Part shown: positions 11,069 through 32,089 of the stretch, one piece after another
How positions within the stretch are numbered: the first letter of the stretch is position 1
Layout: every line of letters starts with the position of its first letter
Assembly: GCA_947478925.1 (NCBI GenBank)
Contig: CANJXY010000018.1
Span: 1-33,969, forward strand
DNA length: 33,969 nucleotides
Reading direction: 5' to 3'
Origin: Hyphomonadaceae bacterium
GTDB lineage: Bacteria; Pseudomonadota; Alphaproteobacteria; Caulobacterales; Hyphomonadaceae
Notes under the pieces: model-generated
Seen by the model: the letters and a program-made list of their open reading frames with translations, nothing else
Told to the model about the DNA's origin: nothing
Database searches by the model: none
Program-made: the position numbers and the translations under genes

Positions 11069-13231
11069 CTAGGCTTTGGCGCCGAGCGGCAGCTTCGCGT
11101 AGGTCTTGCCGGTCGCCGCCAGCAGCGCGTTGGCGACAGCGGGGCCGATTGGCGGAACGCCGGGCTCGCCCACGCCAGATGGCGCCTCGGTCGACTGCAC
11201 CATGAAGACTTCGATCTTCGGCATCTGCGCCATGCGGAGCGGGGTGTAGTCGTAGAAATTCGACTGCACCGGCGCGCCGTCCTTGAGCGTCAGCGCCTCG
11301 CCGACGATGGCGGAGAGGCCATAACCGATGCCGCCTTCCATCTGCGCGCGCACGATGTCCGGATTGATCACGATACCGCAATCGACAGCGCAGACGACGC
11401 GATCGACATGGAAGGCGCCATCGGCATTGACGGACACCTCCGCGACTTCCGCCACATAGGACGAGAAGCTGTGGTGCACTGCGACGCCGCGGAATTTGCC
11501 CGCGGGCAGGGGCGTACCCCAACCAGCTTTCTCTGCGACAAGATTGAGCACGCCCAGCAGGCGCGGTTCCTTCGCGAGCAGTTCACGGCGATAAGCGACC
11601 GGGTCCTTGCCCAGCTTCTTTGCGAGCACGTCGAGGAAGTGTTCCTTGGCGTAGGCAGTGTGGGTGTGACCCACGGAGCGCCACCAGAGAACGCTGGTCG
11701 GAGCCTTTACGAGGTGAAGATCGACCGCGATGTTGGGGATCGCATAAGGGATATCGAACCCGCCTTCGATGGACGATGTGTCGACGGCCCCCGGCGGCAG
11801 GAAGGGCGTGCCTTCCATGATCGACTGGATCGCGGTGGTGTCGCCCCAGTATTCAATGGCGCCCTTGTTGAGGCGCGCTGACATGCGGTGAACCGACATC
11901 GGGCGATACTTGCCCGAGCGGATGTCATCCTCGCGCGTCCACATGAACTTCAGCGGCGCCTTGCCGTTGAGCGCCTTGGCGACCTGTGCGGCTTCCGAGA
12001 CGAGATCGGCATCCGGGGTTGCGCGACGGCCGAATGAGCCGCCCGCGAGCATGGTGACGATTGTTACCTGTTCCGGCTTCAGGCCGAGCACGGCGCAGGC
12101 GGCAGCCTGGTCGCCTGTTGGCATCTGCGAGCCGGAGTGGATCGTGGCGCTCACGCCCGGCGTATATTCGATCACGCAGTTGAGCGGCTCCATGGGCGCA
12201 TGGACGAGGTAGGGGAATTCAAAATCCGCCGTCACGACTTCGCCAGCGCCACGCAGTGCAGAGACGCCTGCGCCTTCCTTGCGGGCTTCGTAGCCCGATT
12301 TGGCGAATGTTTTCTTGTAGTCGGCGAAGATCGCATCGCTCGAGCGCGTTTCGGCGGCCGAATCATCCCATGTCACCTTCAGGGCCTCGCGGCCTTTCTT
12401 GGCGGCCCAGAAGTCGGTCGCGACAACGGCGACACCGTTCGAGATCTGGACAACGTCCGTGACGCCTTTCACGGCCTTGGCTGCGCTGTCGTCGAAGCTT
12501 GCGACCTTGCCGCCGAATTTCGGGCTCCGGAGCAGAACAGCTGTCAGCGTGCCTTCGGGCCGGTAATCCAGCGCGTAGGCTGCTTTGGCGTGTACCTTGT
12601 CCGGCGTGTCGAGGCGGCCGAAACCTTCGGTCCGCTCCTTGCCGATGAACGCGTAAGCCGACGCGTCCTTGTATTGCAGCGTCGTGACATCCGGCGGGGT
12701 GATCTTAGCGGCTTCGGCAGCAAGCTCGCCGTAGGTGGCTGACTTACCGCCCGCTTCAGCCTTGCCCTTGACCAGCAGAACGTCAGAAGCGTCGACCCCG
12801 AACTTTTTCGCGGCGGCCTGGCGCAACATTTCGCGTGCGCTGGCGCCGGCGGCGCGCAGCTGTTGCCACGACGTGAAGATGGCGGTGGACCCGCCGGTGC
12901 CCATCATGCCGCCAAAGGCTGGATTGCCGTATTTGGCGTTGTCGGCCGGCGAGTGCTCGAACCGCATCTGGCTCCAGTCGGCGTCGATCTCCTCAGCAAC
13001 GATGGTGGTGAGACCGGTCGAGATACCCTGGCCGAACTCGATATGACGCAGATAGACGGTGACCGTGTTGTCCGATCCGATCCGCACATAATCGCCCAGG
13101 GCAGTCTGCGTAACGGGGCCGGTTATCGGGGGGGCGCCAGCCGAGCAGCCAACGGCAAAGCCGGCAGCACCCAGACCCATGACGGTCAGGACGAGGCGGC
13201 GCGAAGGTGTAAAGCTTGCTGTGTCAGCCAT
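11069..13231 (-). CDS. iorB: Molybdenum hydroxylase large subunit (IorB-like, xanthine oxidase family)
   Basis: Molybdopterin-binding subunit of a two-component aldehyde/N-heterocycle hydroxylase, like isoquinoline 1-oxidoreductase beta. 720 residues from ATG 13231, five bases after the small subunit. The N-terminus has a twin-arginine-type signal ([20 protein letters not shown], Arg11/Arg12) with a possible lipobox Cys29, so the complex is probably exported folded to the periplasm. Molybdopterin-contact regions include [40 protein letters not shown] and the C-terminal [17 protein letters not shown], whose Glu is the catalytic base position. The frame stays open upstream to 13582, but this overlaps iorA in another frame and is rejected. 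The substrate is unknown: an N-heterocycle or aldehyde. Confidence 0.92.
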
Positions 13232-13236
13232 TGCGA

Positions 13237-13689
13237 TTACCCCATGATCTCGGACGCGCGCGCAACGGCGCCGCGGATGCGGTGATAGGTGGCGCAACGG
13301 CAAACGTTGCCGGTCATGCCATCGGTGATCTGCTGTTCGTTCGGCTTTGGGGTGGTCGTCAGCAGCGCGGTCGCGGCGAGCATCTGGCCCGACTGGCACC
13401 AGCCGCACTGTACGACGTCCAGCTCGGTCCACGCCTGCTGCACGGCCTTTCCAGCCGGCGTGTCGAGGCCTTCGATTGTCGTGATCTTCTTGCCCGCCAG
13501 CGAGGCGGCAGGGGTGACGCAGGCGCGCGTTGGCTGGCCATCGACCAGGACGGTGCAAGCGCCACAGGCGGCGACGCCGCACCCATACTTCGTGCCGGTA
13601 AGTCTGAGATCTTCACGCAAATACCAGAGCAGGGGGCGGTCTTCTTCCCCGGCGTACTCCTGATCCTTGCCGTTGATATTGAGCTTCAT
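13237..13689 (-). CDS. iorA: Molybdenum hydroxylase [2Fe-2S] subunit (IorA-like)
   Basis: Iron-sulfur electron-transfer subunit partnered with the downstream large subunit. 150 residues: a plant-type ferredoxin domain with Cys37, Cys42, Cys45 ([10 protein letters not shown]) and Cys57 (TRACV), and the helical domain binding the second cluster with Cys95/Cys98 (CGWCQSGQ) and Cys130/Cys132 (CRCATYHR). The start at 13689 has a strong GGAGGG five bases upstream. With no FAD-subunit gene nearby, electrons probably leave to a cytochrome, as in isoquinoline 1-oxidoreductase and related periplasmic enzymes (family knowledge). The small subunit lacks its own signal, so it is likely carried across the membrane with IorB by the Tat system. 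Confidence 0.95.
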
Positions 13690-28589: not shown

Positions 28590-29516
28590 CTAACGCGGCC
28601 GCCCTCTCGTCCCGGGGGCGGTCGCCTCGTTTTGGGTGGCGGTGGTGAGTTTGGAACGGGCCCAGGCGAGGCCTGTGTCGCCCTCCGCGTCGCGGCGCCA
28701 GAACAGCATGAGATCGAGTTCTGGCGTTTCCACCGGCAGTTCGCGGATAGCGACGTCGTAACGTTGCGCCAGCGAGACCGGTGCGACGAGCGCGAGGTCG
28801 CTGGCCATCACGGCGTGGAAGGCCGGCTGGTAGTGCGGCATCCGCATCGCAGGCTGAATGCGCTGGCCGATGCGCCCGAGGGCGACGTCGACGACGCCCT
28901 TGCCGCGCCGTCGCGTCGACACCGCGATGTGGCTCAAGGCCAGGAAGTACGCAAGCGTGAACCGGCCTGCCGCGCGCGGATGATCGCGGCGCAGGACGCA
29001 GACATAGCGATCCGAGAACAGCCGCTGGCTAGCGAGATCCGGGCGGGCGAAGGCGGGAATGTCGATGGCAAAATCGATCTGACCGGCGGCAAAGTCACTG
29101 GCGACGTCCTGGCGAGGCGCCTGCATCCAGTGAAAGGCGGTCCTTGCGCGCTCCTGTTCGAGCTGGCGTGCAAGTGCAGGAACGATTGCCAGTGTCGCTA
29201 TATCGCCCGCAGCTATGTTGAAGACGCGGGTCGATCGCGCGGGATCGAAAGCAGCCTGGCGGTCGAGGCCGACGCTGAGCTGGGCCAGCGCCTCGCGTAC
29301 CGGGCCGATCATCGCCTTGGCGGCGGGGGTGGGCGCCATCCCATCGGCGGCGCGCACGAAGAGCTGGTCATTGAACGCCATGCGCAGGCGGGCGAGGGCG
29401 TTGCTGACGGCGGGCTGCGTGAGGTTGAGGCGCTCGGCGGCGCGGGTGATCCCGCCCTCGGTGAAGACGGCCTCGAACACGGGCAAGAGATTGAGATCGA
29501 TGGCGCGCAGGTTCAT
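28590..29516 (-). CDS. LysR-family transcriptional regulator
   Basis: 308 residues from ATG 29516 (MNLRAIDLNLLPVFEAVF). The N-terminal winged HTH is at about residues 5-62 (GGITRAAERLNLTQPAVSNA, LARLR), followed by a periplasmic-binding-protein-like effector domain (about 92-290) ending in the typical LFWRRDAEGDTGLAWARSKL. The MNLRxxDLNLLPVFEA start and WHxRxxxDPAxxWxR-like end fit the NodD/PnbR-like branch. ATG 29525 is three codons upstream and possible; the frame open to 29738 lacks protein character and is rejected. Divergent from the beta-helix lipoprotein gene (about 260 bases between), which is its likeliest target. A Gly/Arg tail at the C-terminus overlaps the neighbour's terminator. 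Confidence 0.93.
   Translation of the reverse strand: MNLRAIDLNLLPVFEAVFTEGGITRAAERLNLTQPAVSNALARLRMAFNDQLFVRAADGMAPTPAAKAMIGPVREALAQLSVGLDRQAAFDPARSTRVFNIAAGDIATLAIVPALARQLEQERARTAFHWMQAPRQDVASDFAAGQIDFAIDIPAFARPDLASQRLFSDRYVCVLRRDHPRAAGRFTLAYFLALSHIAVSTRRRGKGVVDVALGRIGQRIQPAMRMPHYQPAFHAVMASDLALVAPVSLAQRYDVAIRELPVETPELDLMLFWRRDAEGDTGLAWARSKLTTATQNEATAPGTRGRPR
28595..28634 (+). terminator. Rho-independent terminator of the RcnB-like gene
   Basis: Arms GCGGCCGCCC (28595-28604) and GGGCGGTCGC (28616-28625), one G-U pair, then CTCGTTTTG. It overlaps the 3' end of the convergent LysR gene. Confidence 0.7.
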
Positions 29517-29748
29517 GATCGCCATCACTAGTATGAATGAGTAACATTGGCAAAATAAACTGGCCATATGGGTCGGGCAGGGCGAGTGTCGGCCTGCGTC
29601 CAGCGGCGCGAAGTTCTCCGGCGTGTCAGCCGCCGGCGTCATCGCGCTGCTGGCGCCAACTTCTTCACATGGGCGCAGGGAACAGGCGTGTTTGGCCGTC
29701 AGGCTGACATAGCGGCAGCTTGACATTGCCCAGCGCAAATCGAGAGAT

Positions 29749-29782: not shown

Positions 29783-31015
29783 ATGCGCGTCATTCTCGCG
29801 ACAGTTTCGGTTTTGGCGCTTGTGTCGGCCTGCAGCCCTGCTGCGCCGCCCAAGCCTGTGGCGCTGGCGCCGTCGGCCACAGCGAATGACGATCTGCAGA
29901 AACAGCTGATCGAGGCCAAACCTGGCGACGTGATCGAGATCGGCGAGGGCCGCTTCGACTTCGCAACCCCGCTGTCGCTCGACGTCGACAATGTGACGCT
30001 GAAGGGCGCTGGCCAGGACAAGACCTTCATCTCGTTCAAGGGCCAGACAGGCGCGGGCGAGGGTCTGCTTGTGACGTCGGATGGCGTGACCCTGACCGGC
30101 TTCACGATGGAAGACGCCAAGGGCGATGGCATCAAGTCCAAGGGCGCTGACAACATCACCTACAAGGACCTCAAGGTCGTATGGACCGGTGGGCCGCTGA
30201 CCACCAATGGCGCCTATGGCGTCTACCCGGTCGAATCGAAGAACGTGCTGATCGATGGCGTGACGGTATCTGGCGCGTCCGATGCCGGCATCTATGTCGG
30301 TCAGTCGGAGAACATCATCGTCCGCAACAGCCGCGCCGAATACAATGTCGCCGGCATAGAGATCGAGAACTCCTCCAACGCCGACGTGCATGACAACGTC
30401 GCGACCCACAATGCAGGCGGCATCCTCGTGTTCGATCTGCCGAACCTGCCGAAGATCGGCGGGCATTCGACCCGCATCTTCAACAACCAGGTGGTCGAGA
30501 ACGACACGCAGAACTTTGCGCCTCCCGGCAACATTGTCGCCAACGTGCCGACGGGCTCGGGTGTGATGCTGATGGCGAACCAAAATGTGCACGTGTTCAA
30601 CAATACGTTCGACAAGAACCAGACGACGCACGTGCTGATCTACGGCTATTCGTTTGCCTTCGATGACGAGCGGTACAATCCTTTGCCGCGCGACTTCGTG
30701 ATCCGCGACAACACGTATGGCGACGGCGGCAATAGCCCGCAGGGACGCCTTGCGCCGTTGGCGCCCGCCATCGGCGGCAAGCTGCCGGCAATCGTGTGGG
30801 ACGGTGTCACCACTTATCATGGGAAGACGGAAGACGTTCGTATCGCGGTGCGCGAGAAGCCGGAGGTCGGCTTCATCAATCTCGGCCTCGGCGTGACGCC
30901 GATCGACCTGACCAAGGCGAAACCCTCAACCAAGCGGCTGCCGGACTTCGAGATCGCCGAACCGCCTGCCGTGGTCCTGCCGCAGGACAAGCCGGCTACG
31001 AAAGAGGGAGCTTAA
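29783..31015 (+). CDS. Right-handed parallel beta-helix lipoprotein (TIGR03805-like)
   Basis: Predicted lipoprotein of 410 residues. Signal peptide with lipobox LVSAC (Cys17); then a PbH1 repeat domain at about residues 45-300 (VDNVTLKGAG, SDGVTLTGFTMEDA, ADNITYKDLKVVW, SKNVLIDGVTVSG, SENIIVRNSRAE, NSSNADVHDNVATH), as in pectate-lyase-like folds. The C-terminal part (about 330-410) is less repetitive and ends Pro/Lys-rich. GGGGAG seven bases upstream supports ATG 29783. It is followed after 18 bases by a diheme lipoprotein. This order matches a recurrent two-gene pair whose function was unknown when the families were defined (recalled family description). No catalytic residue can be assigned; polysaccharide binding or cleavage is conceivable. 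Confidence 0.85.
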   Translation: MRVILATVSVLALVSACSPAAPPKPVALAPSATANDDLQKQLIEAKPGDVIEIGEGRFDFATPLSLDVDNVTLKGAGQDKTFISFKGQTGAGEGLLVTSDGVTLTGFTMEDAKGDGIKSKGADNITYKDLKVVWTGGPLTTNGAYGVYPVESKNVLIDGVTVSGASDAGIYVGQSENIIVRNSRAEYNVAGIEIENSSNADVHDNVATHNAGGILVFDLPNLPKIGGHSTRIFNNQVVENDTQNFAPPGNIVANVPTGSGVMLMANQNVHVFNNTFDKNQTTHVLIYGYSFAFDDERYNPLPRDFVIRDNTYGDGGNSPQGRLAPLAPAIGGKLPAIVWDGVTTYHGKTEDVRIAVREKPEVGFINLGLGVTPIDLTKAKPSTKRLPDFEIAEPPAVVLPQDKPATKEGA

Positions 31016-31033
31016 GCCTCGGATGAAGGCGAA

Positions 31034-32089
31034 GTGAGCGGCAGCGTGCGTTTGCTTGTTGTGTCGTTGTTTCTTGCGCTCGCCGCGTGCTCTGCACCGG
31101 CGGGCGTGAAGGACAGCGTGATCCTTGCGGCTGATCCGGCGCCAAAGCTTTCGGATTATGGTTTCTTCGCTACGGCGAATGCAGGAGCTGCAGTCGCGGA
31201 TGGCGTGCGCCCGTATGATCTGGTGAACGCGCTGTTCGCGGATTATGCGGGCAAGCATCGCTTCGTCTATGTGCCGAAGGGCCAGAGCGCGACCTACAAT
31301 CCGGACACGGTGTTCGACTTTCCGGTTGGTTCGGTGCTGATCAAGACGTTCGCGTTCGCGCCCGACATGCGCGACCCTGCGCTCAATGAAAGGTGGATCG
31401 AGACGCGGCTTCTGATCCACAAGAGCGAGGGGTGGGTTGCCTATCCCTATGTCTGGAATGCAGAGCAGACTGAGGCGGTCTATTCGCCCGTGGGCGGCCG
31501 GCAGATTGTCAAGACTATCTCGCCCGAGGGTGAGGCGCTGACGATCAACTATGCGATCCCGAATCGCAACCAGTGCAAGGAATGCCATTCGAGGAACAAG
31601 GTGTTCACGCCGATCGGGCCGAGTGCGCGCAACCTCAATCATGTGGGGCCGGCGGGCGTGCAGCAGATCGCGGACTGGACCGAGCGCGGGATACTGACCG
31701 GCGCGCCGGCCGAGGGATTGCCGACAGCGCCGCCCGCGTTCGGCGATCAGCCACTGGAACAACGCGCGCGCGCGTGGCTCGATATCAACTGCGCGCATTG
31801 CCATCGCGCGGGTGGCGGTGCGTCCAACTCCGGGCTGTTCCTGGCGTGGAACGAAACCACACCCACGGGGTGGGGCGTTCACAAGCGACCGACGGCTGCG
31901 GGTCGGGGATCGGGCGATTTTCTGTTCGTGATCGAGCCTGGCAAGCCGGATCAGTCGATCATGATCCATCGCATCGGCTCGGTTGAGCCGGGCGTGATGA
32001 TGCCCGAGCTCGGCCGCACGACGGTGGATACCAGGGCGCTGGCGCTGATCCGTGAGTGGATCGCGGCGATGCCGCCGGTCGCGCAATAA
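31034..32089 (+). CDS. Diheme c-type lipoprotein, HNE_0200/SO2930 family (TIGR03806-like)
   Basis: 351 residues, GTG start with AAGG five to six bases upstream. Signal peptide with lipobox LAAC (Cys19), so likely membrane-anchored on the periplasmic side or in the outer membrane. Two haem-c motifs are present: CKECH (181-185) and CAHCH (253-257); Met322/Met323 in VMMPELG is a possible axial ligand of one haem. The N-terminal 170 residues (KLSDYGFFATANA, PYDLVNALFADYAGKHRFVY, VGSVLIKTFAF) form a family-specific domain. Haem loading would need the Ccm system encoded at the start of this window. It forms an operon with the beta-helix gene. The activity of the pair is not known to me; redox chemistry on a glycan is speculative. 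Confidence 0.85.
   Translation: MSGSVRLLVVSLFLALAACSAPAGVKDSVILAADPAPKLSDYGFFATANAGAAVADGVRPYDLVNALFADYAGKHRFVYVPKGQSATYNPDTVFDFPVGSVLIKTFAFAPDMRDPALNERWIETRLLIHKSEGWVAYPYVWNAEQTEAVYSPVGGRQIVKTISPEGEALTINYAIPNRNQCKECHSRNKVFTPIGPSARNLNHVGPAGVQQIADWTERGILTGAPAEGLPTAPPAFGDQPLEQRARAWLDINCAHCHRAGGGASNSGLFLAWNETTPTGWGVHKRPTAAGRGSGDFLFVIEPGKPDQSIMIHRIGSVEPGVMMPELGRTTVDTRALALIREWIAAMPPVAQ

Follow-up and report, generated by a model that had tools for sequence, protein, structure and literature searches.

The dihaem cytochrome of the TIGR03805–TIGR03806 gene pair probably carries a P460-like haem domain

Introduction

A stretch of 33,969 nucleotides from a Hyphomonadaceae bacterium (GenBank assembly GCA_947478925.1, contig CANJXY010000018.1; the whole stretch is called "the window" below) contains two adjacent genes, one for a right-handed parallel beta-helix lipoprotein of the family TIGR03805 and one for a dihaem c-type cytochrome lipoprotein of the family TIGR03806. 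Here we report that the N-terminal domain (N-domain) of the dihaem protein is P460-like and probably a remote relative of the cytochrome P460/c'-beta superfamily, with an invariant lysine (Lys104) that aligns with the cross-linking lysine of cytochrome P460. An oxidising P460-like haem enzyme that works together with the beta-helix is the explanation that we propose, and we give it about an even chance. The pair as such is already known, as NCBIfam models exist for both proteins, and it is unexplained; what this analysis adds is the P460-like reading of the TIGR03806 N-domain, not the families themselves. We found neither a study of the pair nor a P460 reading of it in the open-licence PMC literature, and the accessible part of a review on P460 (PMC11928373) mentions none of the terms fused, Shewanella, di-heme, and beta-helix.

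A conserved gene pair

The initial annotation of the window had described two adjacent open genes, 18 bases apart, each with a lipobox and the second with two CxxCH haem sites, and had named the families TIGR03805 and TIGR03806. The sequence bears this out: both genes lie on the plus strand with a spacer of 18 bases (31016-31033), and the family names are right, because both proteins exceed the curated NCBIfam cut-offs in hidden Markov model searches. The first product scores 415.4 bits against TIGR03805 (cut-off 141.5; positions 1-314 of 314), and the second 375.2 bits against TIGR03806 (cut-off 313.3; positions 2-314 of 314), which is now named "SO2930 family diheme c-type cytochrome" in NCBIfam. 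Two CxxCH motifs, as found in the second protein, occurred in none of 20,000 residue shuffles. Export signals are supported by lipobox-like sites, VSAC and LAAC, one in each protein; a strict regular expression, which does not amount to a signal-peptide predictor, recognized a lipobox in 14 of the 73 rows for the beta-helix and in 14 of the 77 for the cytochrome, and the feature is therefore not general across the family. The source genome (3.94 Mb in 344 contigs) has a single match to each family, both within the window. Among the matches listed, the closest named relative is a Hyphomonadaceae metagenome-assembled genome with 78% identity in the best segment, from a collection that may omit records very near the source genome.

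The two-gene pairing, also mentioned in the initial annotation, is real, as a survey of fusions and neighbourhoods has confirmed. In an even draw of 398 genomes from the phylum, the source genome included, TIGR03806 exceeded its cut-off in 37 genomes, and TIGR03805 was immediately adjacent or fused to it in all 37: 33 are adjacent by their listed coordinates and four (G592, G483, G555, and G510) share the same open frame. In the draw from the class, the TIGR03806 cut-off was exceeded in 12 of 289 genomes. A collection of named genomes held at least 591 stretches with an encoded relative, and among the best 80, which were kept as loci, TIGR03805 accompanies the cytochrome in 74. The beta-helix gene lies upstream of the cytochrome gene on the same strand in 73 of the 80, with a 397-aa frame intervening in one of the loci (L061), and the two are fused in one (L076, Binatia). 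The window thus has the same families, above their cut-offs and in the same gene order, as the known pair (HNE_0200; SO2930 family), with no difference at the family level. The genus of G592, G483, and G555 carries a beta-helix/cytochrome fusion, which is 881 aa long in both loci that were read; a second TIGR03806 copy lies nearby in two of these three genomes. In one genome, the fusion gene and the second dihaem copy are separated by a frame, L158:6666-7490, that looks transposase-like by eye.

The dihaem module also occurs in other settings. The long protein of L162:2869-6459 combines a GSDH domain (124.4 bits) with a TIGR03806-like module after it (234.3 bits, below the cut-off), and its C-terminal part matched lysostaphin chains (best E 0.0075) and gave two weaker matches in a Protein Data Bank (PDB) sequence search. 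A divergent TIGR03806-like domain is present in giant proteins of about 2,000-2,400 aa in L163, L167, and L017; the L017 protein bears the annotation "starch-binding protein", and its gene is followed by a DUF1552 gene.

A probable P460-like domain in the dihaem cytochrome

An AlphaFold2 model of the dihaem protein, built from 77 rows, reached a predicted local distance difference test score (pLDDT) of 94.3 and a predicted template modelling score (pTM) of 0.90. When it was compared with known structures by VIA-align, with good coverage of residues 27-216 only, rows 1-16 were all cytochrome P460 or cytochrome c'-beta (Z 5.7-7.3; root-mean-square deviation 3.1-4.8; 114-138 residues aligned), and the following row fell to Z 3.8. 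The best row, 7ead, is a c'-beta with Z 7.3, level with the P460 rows; the c'-beta rows as a group range from Z 6.3 to 7.3. Because values of Z under 8 are merely suggestive, the P460 idea was tested by sequence.

Profile-profile alignment of 51 of the 77 N-domains with 22 P460-family proteins (from 22 of 30 loci) gave a probability of 91.4 with E 9e-7 over 35 columns. A rerun in which the match columns were taken from the first row gave a probability of 70.3, E 4e-5, and a score of 35.5 over 93 columns, and this alignment spans the motif FPVGSVLIK through to CxxCH. Column shuffles of the rerun had a mean of 12.7 and a maximum of 25.0, and none of the 150 reached 35.5. When the 51 N-domains were scanned singly against Pfam, PF16694 (Cytochrome_P460) was the commonest family, with 25 matches at E <= 1 (best 2.9e-4), followed by PF21563 and Cytochrom_C with nine each.

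The likeness to cytochrome P460 comprises a probable beta-sheet haem c fold, a CxxCH near the end of the domain, a lysine at the cross-link position, and a glycine five residues before it. Unlike cytochrome P460, the dihaem protein has a second haem domain, is longer by about 34 residues across the aligned range, and has a beta-helix partner; the D-x-V-F that follows CxxCH in P460 was not seen by eye, and the Pfam cut-off was unreached in the scores seen. A separate PF16694 protein is encoded elsewhere in the source genome (G000:C7:9101-9475, L189; 47.2 bits, cut-off 27), and P460-family genes are frequent in the phylum, occurring in 22 of 249 genomes.

Haem ligands and Lys104

The profile alignments place FPVGSVLIK, which ends at K104, on FPDGSVLAK of the P460 set. 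As judged from sequence records, the P460 lysine aligned with K104 is the cross-linking one, because the wild-type P460 of Nitrosomonas AL212 (6amg) reads GTVIVK where 6w6n, titled K106L/A131E, reads GTVIVL, and because Lys106 is tabulated, together with Lys78, among the cross-link residues in the accessible part of the P460 review (PMC11928373). In McP460, a conserved Gly73 and the cross-link Lys78 are described in passages of PMC6427953, and their spacing equals that of the other P460 lysine motif. As to whether Lys104 is truly cross-linked to haem 1, we consider it a real prospect while leaning slightly against it.

K74, R76, K104, E123, T124, and R125 are each kept in 77 of 77 cytochrome rows, a set that omits L032, L037, L051, and L057, where the cytochrome was not called. 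A further 39 copies were collected, after omission of duplicates and of matches below 120 residues; they lie mostly in the family and also include the L162 GSDH fusion, a Sandaracinus protein (L018), and the giants of L163, L167, and L017. At the position of the lysine, 33 of these copies have a residue, and it is lysine in every one; E123-T124 is kept in all 39 and R125 in 37. E123 is on the strand that follows the one with K104, and the accessible part of PMC11928373 describes a distal carboxylate in the hydroxylamine-oxidising P460s.

The only Met or His columns kept in at least 80% of the 77 rows are H185, H257, and M323 (all 77) and H255 (76). Haem 2 is therefore likely to have Met323 as a distal ligand of the class I type, and no distal Met or His conserved at this level is found for haem 1 in these rows. 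The haem 2 region matches Cytochrom_C weakly (17.6 bits, cut-off 21.3). The coordinates of the features are collected in Table 1.

Table 1. Features of the gene pair and its divergent neighbour, in positions of the window
Feature	Position	Strand	Remarks
TIGR03805 right-handed parallel beta-helix lipoprotein	29783..31015	+	410 aa, ATG start
TIGR03806 / SO2930-family dihaem c-type cytochrome lipoprotein	31034..32089	+	351 aa, GTG start
P460-like haem domain as cut for comparisons, residues 30-216, holds haem 1	31121..31681	+	structure rows, profile match
Lys104 codon, aligned with the cross-linking lysine of cytochrome P460	31343..31345	+	K104 in 77/77
Haem 1 CxxCH, residues 181-185	31574..31588	+	C181, C184, H185 in 77/77
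Haem 2 CxxCH, residues 253-257, class I cytochrome c-like	31790..31804	+	C253, C256, H257 in 77/77
Met323 codon, likely distal ligand of haem 2	32000..32002	+	Met in 77/77
Divergent LysR-family regulator	28590..29516	-	PF00126 and PF03466; start probably at 29516, 266 bases upstream of the pair

Proposed function of the pair

We propose that the pair acts as a small oxidoreductase of the periplasm or the outer membrane. Haem 1, held in the P460-like beta-sheet domain with its distal side open and perhaps cross-linked to Lys104, would take electrons from a substrate; the electrons would pass to haem 2, a probably Met-ligated cytochrome c of the class I type, and on into the respiratory chain. 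The beta-helix would bind, present, or pre-process the substrate. The association of the dihaem module with GSDH, fused in L162 and encoded by GSDH genes after the cytochromes of L065 and L078, is counted in favour of this reading. The initial annotation had spoken of an undescribed oxidative system: the oxidative part is plausible and gains a mechanism from the P460-like N-terminal domain of the dihaem protein, and the pair itself was already described in NCBIfam.

Several observations weigh against this proposal. Structural similarity with Z below 8 may reflect a mere common arrangement, and Foldseek gave no match at E <= 0.001, with cytochrome P460 first appearing at E 0.11. When ten chosen members were rescanned, five matched PF16694, at 13.9-16.7 bits against a gathering cut-off of 27 (in four of these five, the match spans from before the lysine to CxxCH). 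The N-domain of the window protein itself has no PF16694 match at E <= 1, and no P460 was found up to E 10 when the N-domain profile was searched against PDB sequences; it is because of these last two results that we call the domain "P460-like" and not a member of the Pfam family. The correspondence of E123 or R125 to the distal carboxylate of P460 is uncertain, as hhalign gives a different pairing for that strand and the residue alignment to P460 is ambiguous there. Six of the 80 loci, all Bacteroidota by title, have a cytochrome without a flanking beta-helix; L065 and L078, which share the same organism name, are two of these. Finally, no phenotype or substrate was found.

The beta-helix protein

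The complex was modelled as the natural fusion L076 (55 rows), the beta-helix of which is 43% identical to the TIGR03805 protein of the window. Both domains are well folded: the block means of pLDDT are 94-98 for the beta-helix (residues 101-290), 82-97 for residues 291-360, and 54-96 for the cytochrome part from residue 531 on. The linker (residues 365-511) is disordered, and the mean pLDDT of the whole model is 73.4. Because of this linker and a pTM of 0.50, the relative placement of the domains is not readable and the model gives no interface. The best structural rows for the L076 beta-helix, some of which extend into the disordered stretch, are an alginate epimerase/lyase and the epimerase modules of AlgE4 and AlgE6, with Z of about 30, which supports a carbohydrate-enzyme type of fold (the initial annotation had spoken of a glycan-binding type); NosD chains match at Z of about 26.

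The right-handed beta-helix is thus shared with the A-modules of the AlgE mannuronan C5-epimerases, whose catalytic residues are Tyr149, Asp152, and His154 according to passages of PMC7385640. The corresponding pattern Tyr-x-x-Asp-x-His is not conserved here: it occurs in just 3 of 73 beta-helix rows, and AlgE-type chemistry is therefore unlikely in this protein. The strand taken as equivalent, chosen by motif reading, has the form Y145-x-x-Y148-x-V150, with Y145 and Y148 in 73 of 73 rows and V150 in 72. K118, W134, N142, Y145, Y148, D167, Y171, Q174, and N188 are kept in all 73 rows, as are E193, E195, N196, N210, and F217 (the set omits L052, truncated where its contig ends, and L062, where the beta-helix was not called). 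Such strict conservation suggests an active or binding site, and from the repeat pattern K118, Y148, Y171, E193, and E195 appear to share one outer face. In the literature, a TIGR03805 protein, Bcam1339, is placed in an exopolysaccharide cluster in a passage of PMC3584217, and the family is also named in PMC5847202.

A second TIGR03805 subfamily, scoring 178-187 bits, is present in G580, G589, G582, G398, G501, and G607. In the loci read from three of these six genomes (L164, L165, and L166), the beta-helix protein contains one CxxCH and is encoded downstream of a dihaem gene. The dihaem neighbour in L164 and L165 is MauG/MbnH-like (220-224 bits against TIGR04039, cut-off 362.85; 183-185 bits against PF03150, cut-off 25.6), and L164 and L166 have an extra dihaem gene of 206-213 aa. 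MauG and MbnH make protein-derived cofactors by oxidising residues of partner proteins. As TIGR03805 is combined with two different dihaem proteins, a redox role of the beta-helix is supported, and a MauG-like function of the pair is kept in contention.

Alternative explanations

Both haems may merely carry electrons, in which case the pair would serve as an electron conduit at the outer membrane, in keeping with the usual listing of SO_2931 of Shewanella oneidensis; we regard this as unlikely. SO_2931 stands among the outer-membrane cytochromes in passages of PMC5829830, PMC10986466, PMC4837345, PMC12175506, PMC5955497, and PMC5357785, and the fusion of G592, G483, and G555 with its second dihaem copy would fit SO_2931/SO_2930. 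However, haem 1, with no conserved distal Met or His, sits in a P460-like domain, and none of the published passages seen on SO_2931 reports a deletion of this gene alone or an effect of one. It is also conceivable that haem 1 binds a gas (NO or CO) unconverted, like cytochrome c'-beta, and that the role of the beta-helix is separate. The top structural row, 7ead, is a c'-beta tied with P460 rows, whereas the characterised c'-beta proteins in the accessible part of PMC11928373 carry Phe or Met at the cross-link position, where Lys is found in all 77 rows and in all 33 further copies; such gas binding is accordingly quite improbable in our judgement.

A MauG/MbnH-like explanation, which we take to be slightly more improbable still, is that the dihaem protein oxidises an invariant aromatic residue of the beta-helix (Trp134, Tyr145, Tyr148, or Tyr171) to a protein-derived cofactor. 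The pair shares with MauG/MbnH an exported dihaem protein in a conserved pairing; the four residues are present in 73 of 73 rows, and the CxxCH-bearing TIGR03805 subfamily lies downstream of a dihaem gene that is MauG/MbnH-like in two scanned loci. The dihaem protein of the window, on the other hand, has no match to PF03150 (MauG/cytochrome c peroxidase) at E <= 1 and resembles P460 instead. The beta-helix protein could also be a NosD-like accessory that assembles or delivers a cofactor for the cytochrome. It matches the NosD-related PF05048 with 46.3 bits (cut-off 23.6) and the NosD family TIGR04247 with 40.4 bits, far from the cut-off of 300 for membership; the NosD chains mentioned above match the fold of its L076 relative, and in L063, L067, and L083 the pair is followed at about 1.2 kb by an ABC ATPase gene, probably behind an HlyD-type gene (HlyD-type genes are 3 of 76 downstream neighbours). 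Against this, carbohydrate enzymes and phage proteins score equally high or higher structurally, and ABC ATPases, present in 11 of 80 loci, lie at scattered distances from the pair, so that no transporter accompanies the pair in general. A NosD-like role therefore seems to us very improbable.

Neighbouring genes

Outside the pair, gene order is not conserved. Among 938 called neighbours in the 80 loci, no cluster exceeds 16 loci, and the top cluster (16 of 80) consists of short-chain dehydrogenases at scattered distances. In the Pfam tallies of the immediate neighbours, TetR is the top family upstream (6 of 78) and the TonB-receptor plug downstream (5 of 76), and the remaining families are largely housekeeping; the families viewed were the first 25 of 109 upstream and the first 25 of 85 downstream, and the tallies omit L052 and L069 upstream and L044, L054, L069, and L096 downstream. 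A TonB-receptor gene lies upstream of the pair in Novosphingobium and is divergent from it in L170, and in L159 a FadL-type gene lies upstream of the fusion. Deduction of a substrate from the neighbourhood was dropped, as these associations are too scattered. The lack of conservation in the wider neighbourhoods suggests that the pair stands as a unit of its own.

In the window, the divergent LysR-family gene possibly regulates the pair. A scan for promoters gave one promoter-like site on the plus strand at 29491-29519, and a scan for terminators gave none on that strand up to 32400; the two scans gave 3 sites where 0.6 were expected and 3 where 1.9 were expected, and we draw no inference from either. 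At 11072-13582 on the minus strand, the window also encodes molybdopterin-cofactor-binding domains (PF20256 and PF02738), for which no link to the pair was seen.

Significance

According to the accessible part of PMC11928373, hydroxylamine is the substrate of the characterised P460 haems, which stem from bacteria that oxidise ammonia or methane. The range of TIGR03806 includes the Alphaproteobacteria, the Gammaproteobacteria (including SAR86), the Bacteroidota, the Neomarinimicrobiota, and the Binatia. We put forward, tentatively and with more doubt than belief, the broader idea that TIGR03806 proteins are widespread lysine-cross-linked enzymes of the P460 type with a built-in electron-transfer haem, in which the partner module (the beta-helix, a GSDH-type propeller, or larger proteins) sets the substrate; P460 chemistry would then extend beyond free hydroxylamine. 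A propeller and haem modules are also joined in hydrazine synthase, as described in passages of PMC12758564.

Given the P460-like first half of the dihaem protein, we suggest that the pair oxidises something. If haem 1 of this uncharacterised family is of the P460 kind, many ordinary bacteria would possess, beside a beta-helix, a catalytic haem that is possibly cross-linked and served by an electron-transfer haem of its own, and the view of SO_2931-type proteins in work on extracellular electron transfer would change. A "dihaem cytochrome of unknown function" would become an enzyme open to testing, with Lys104 as its named residue and with an optical signature.

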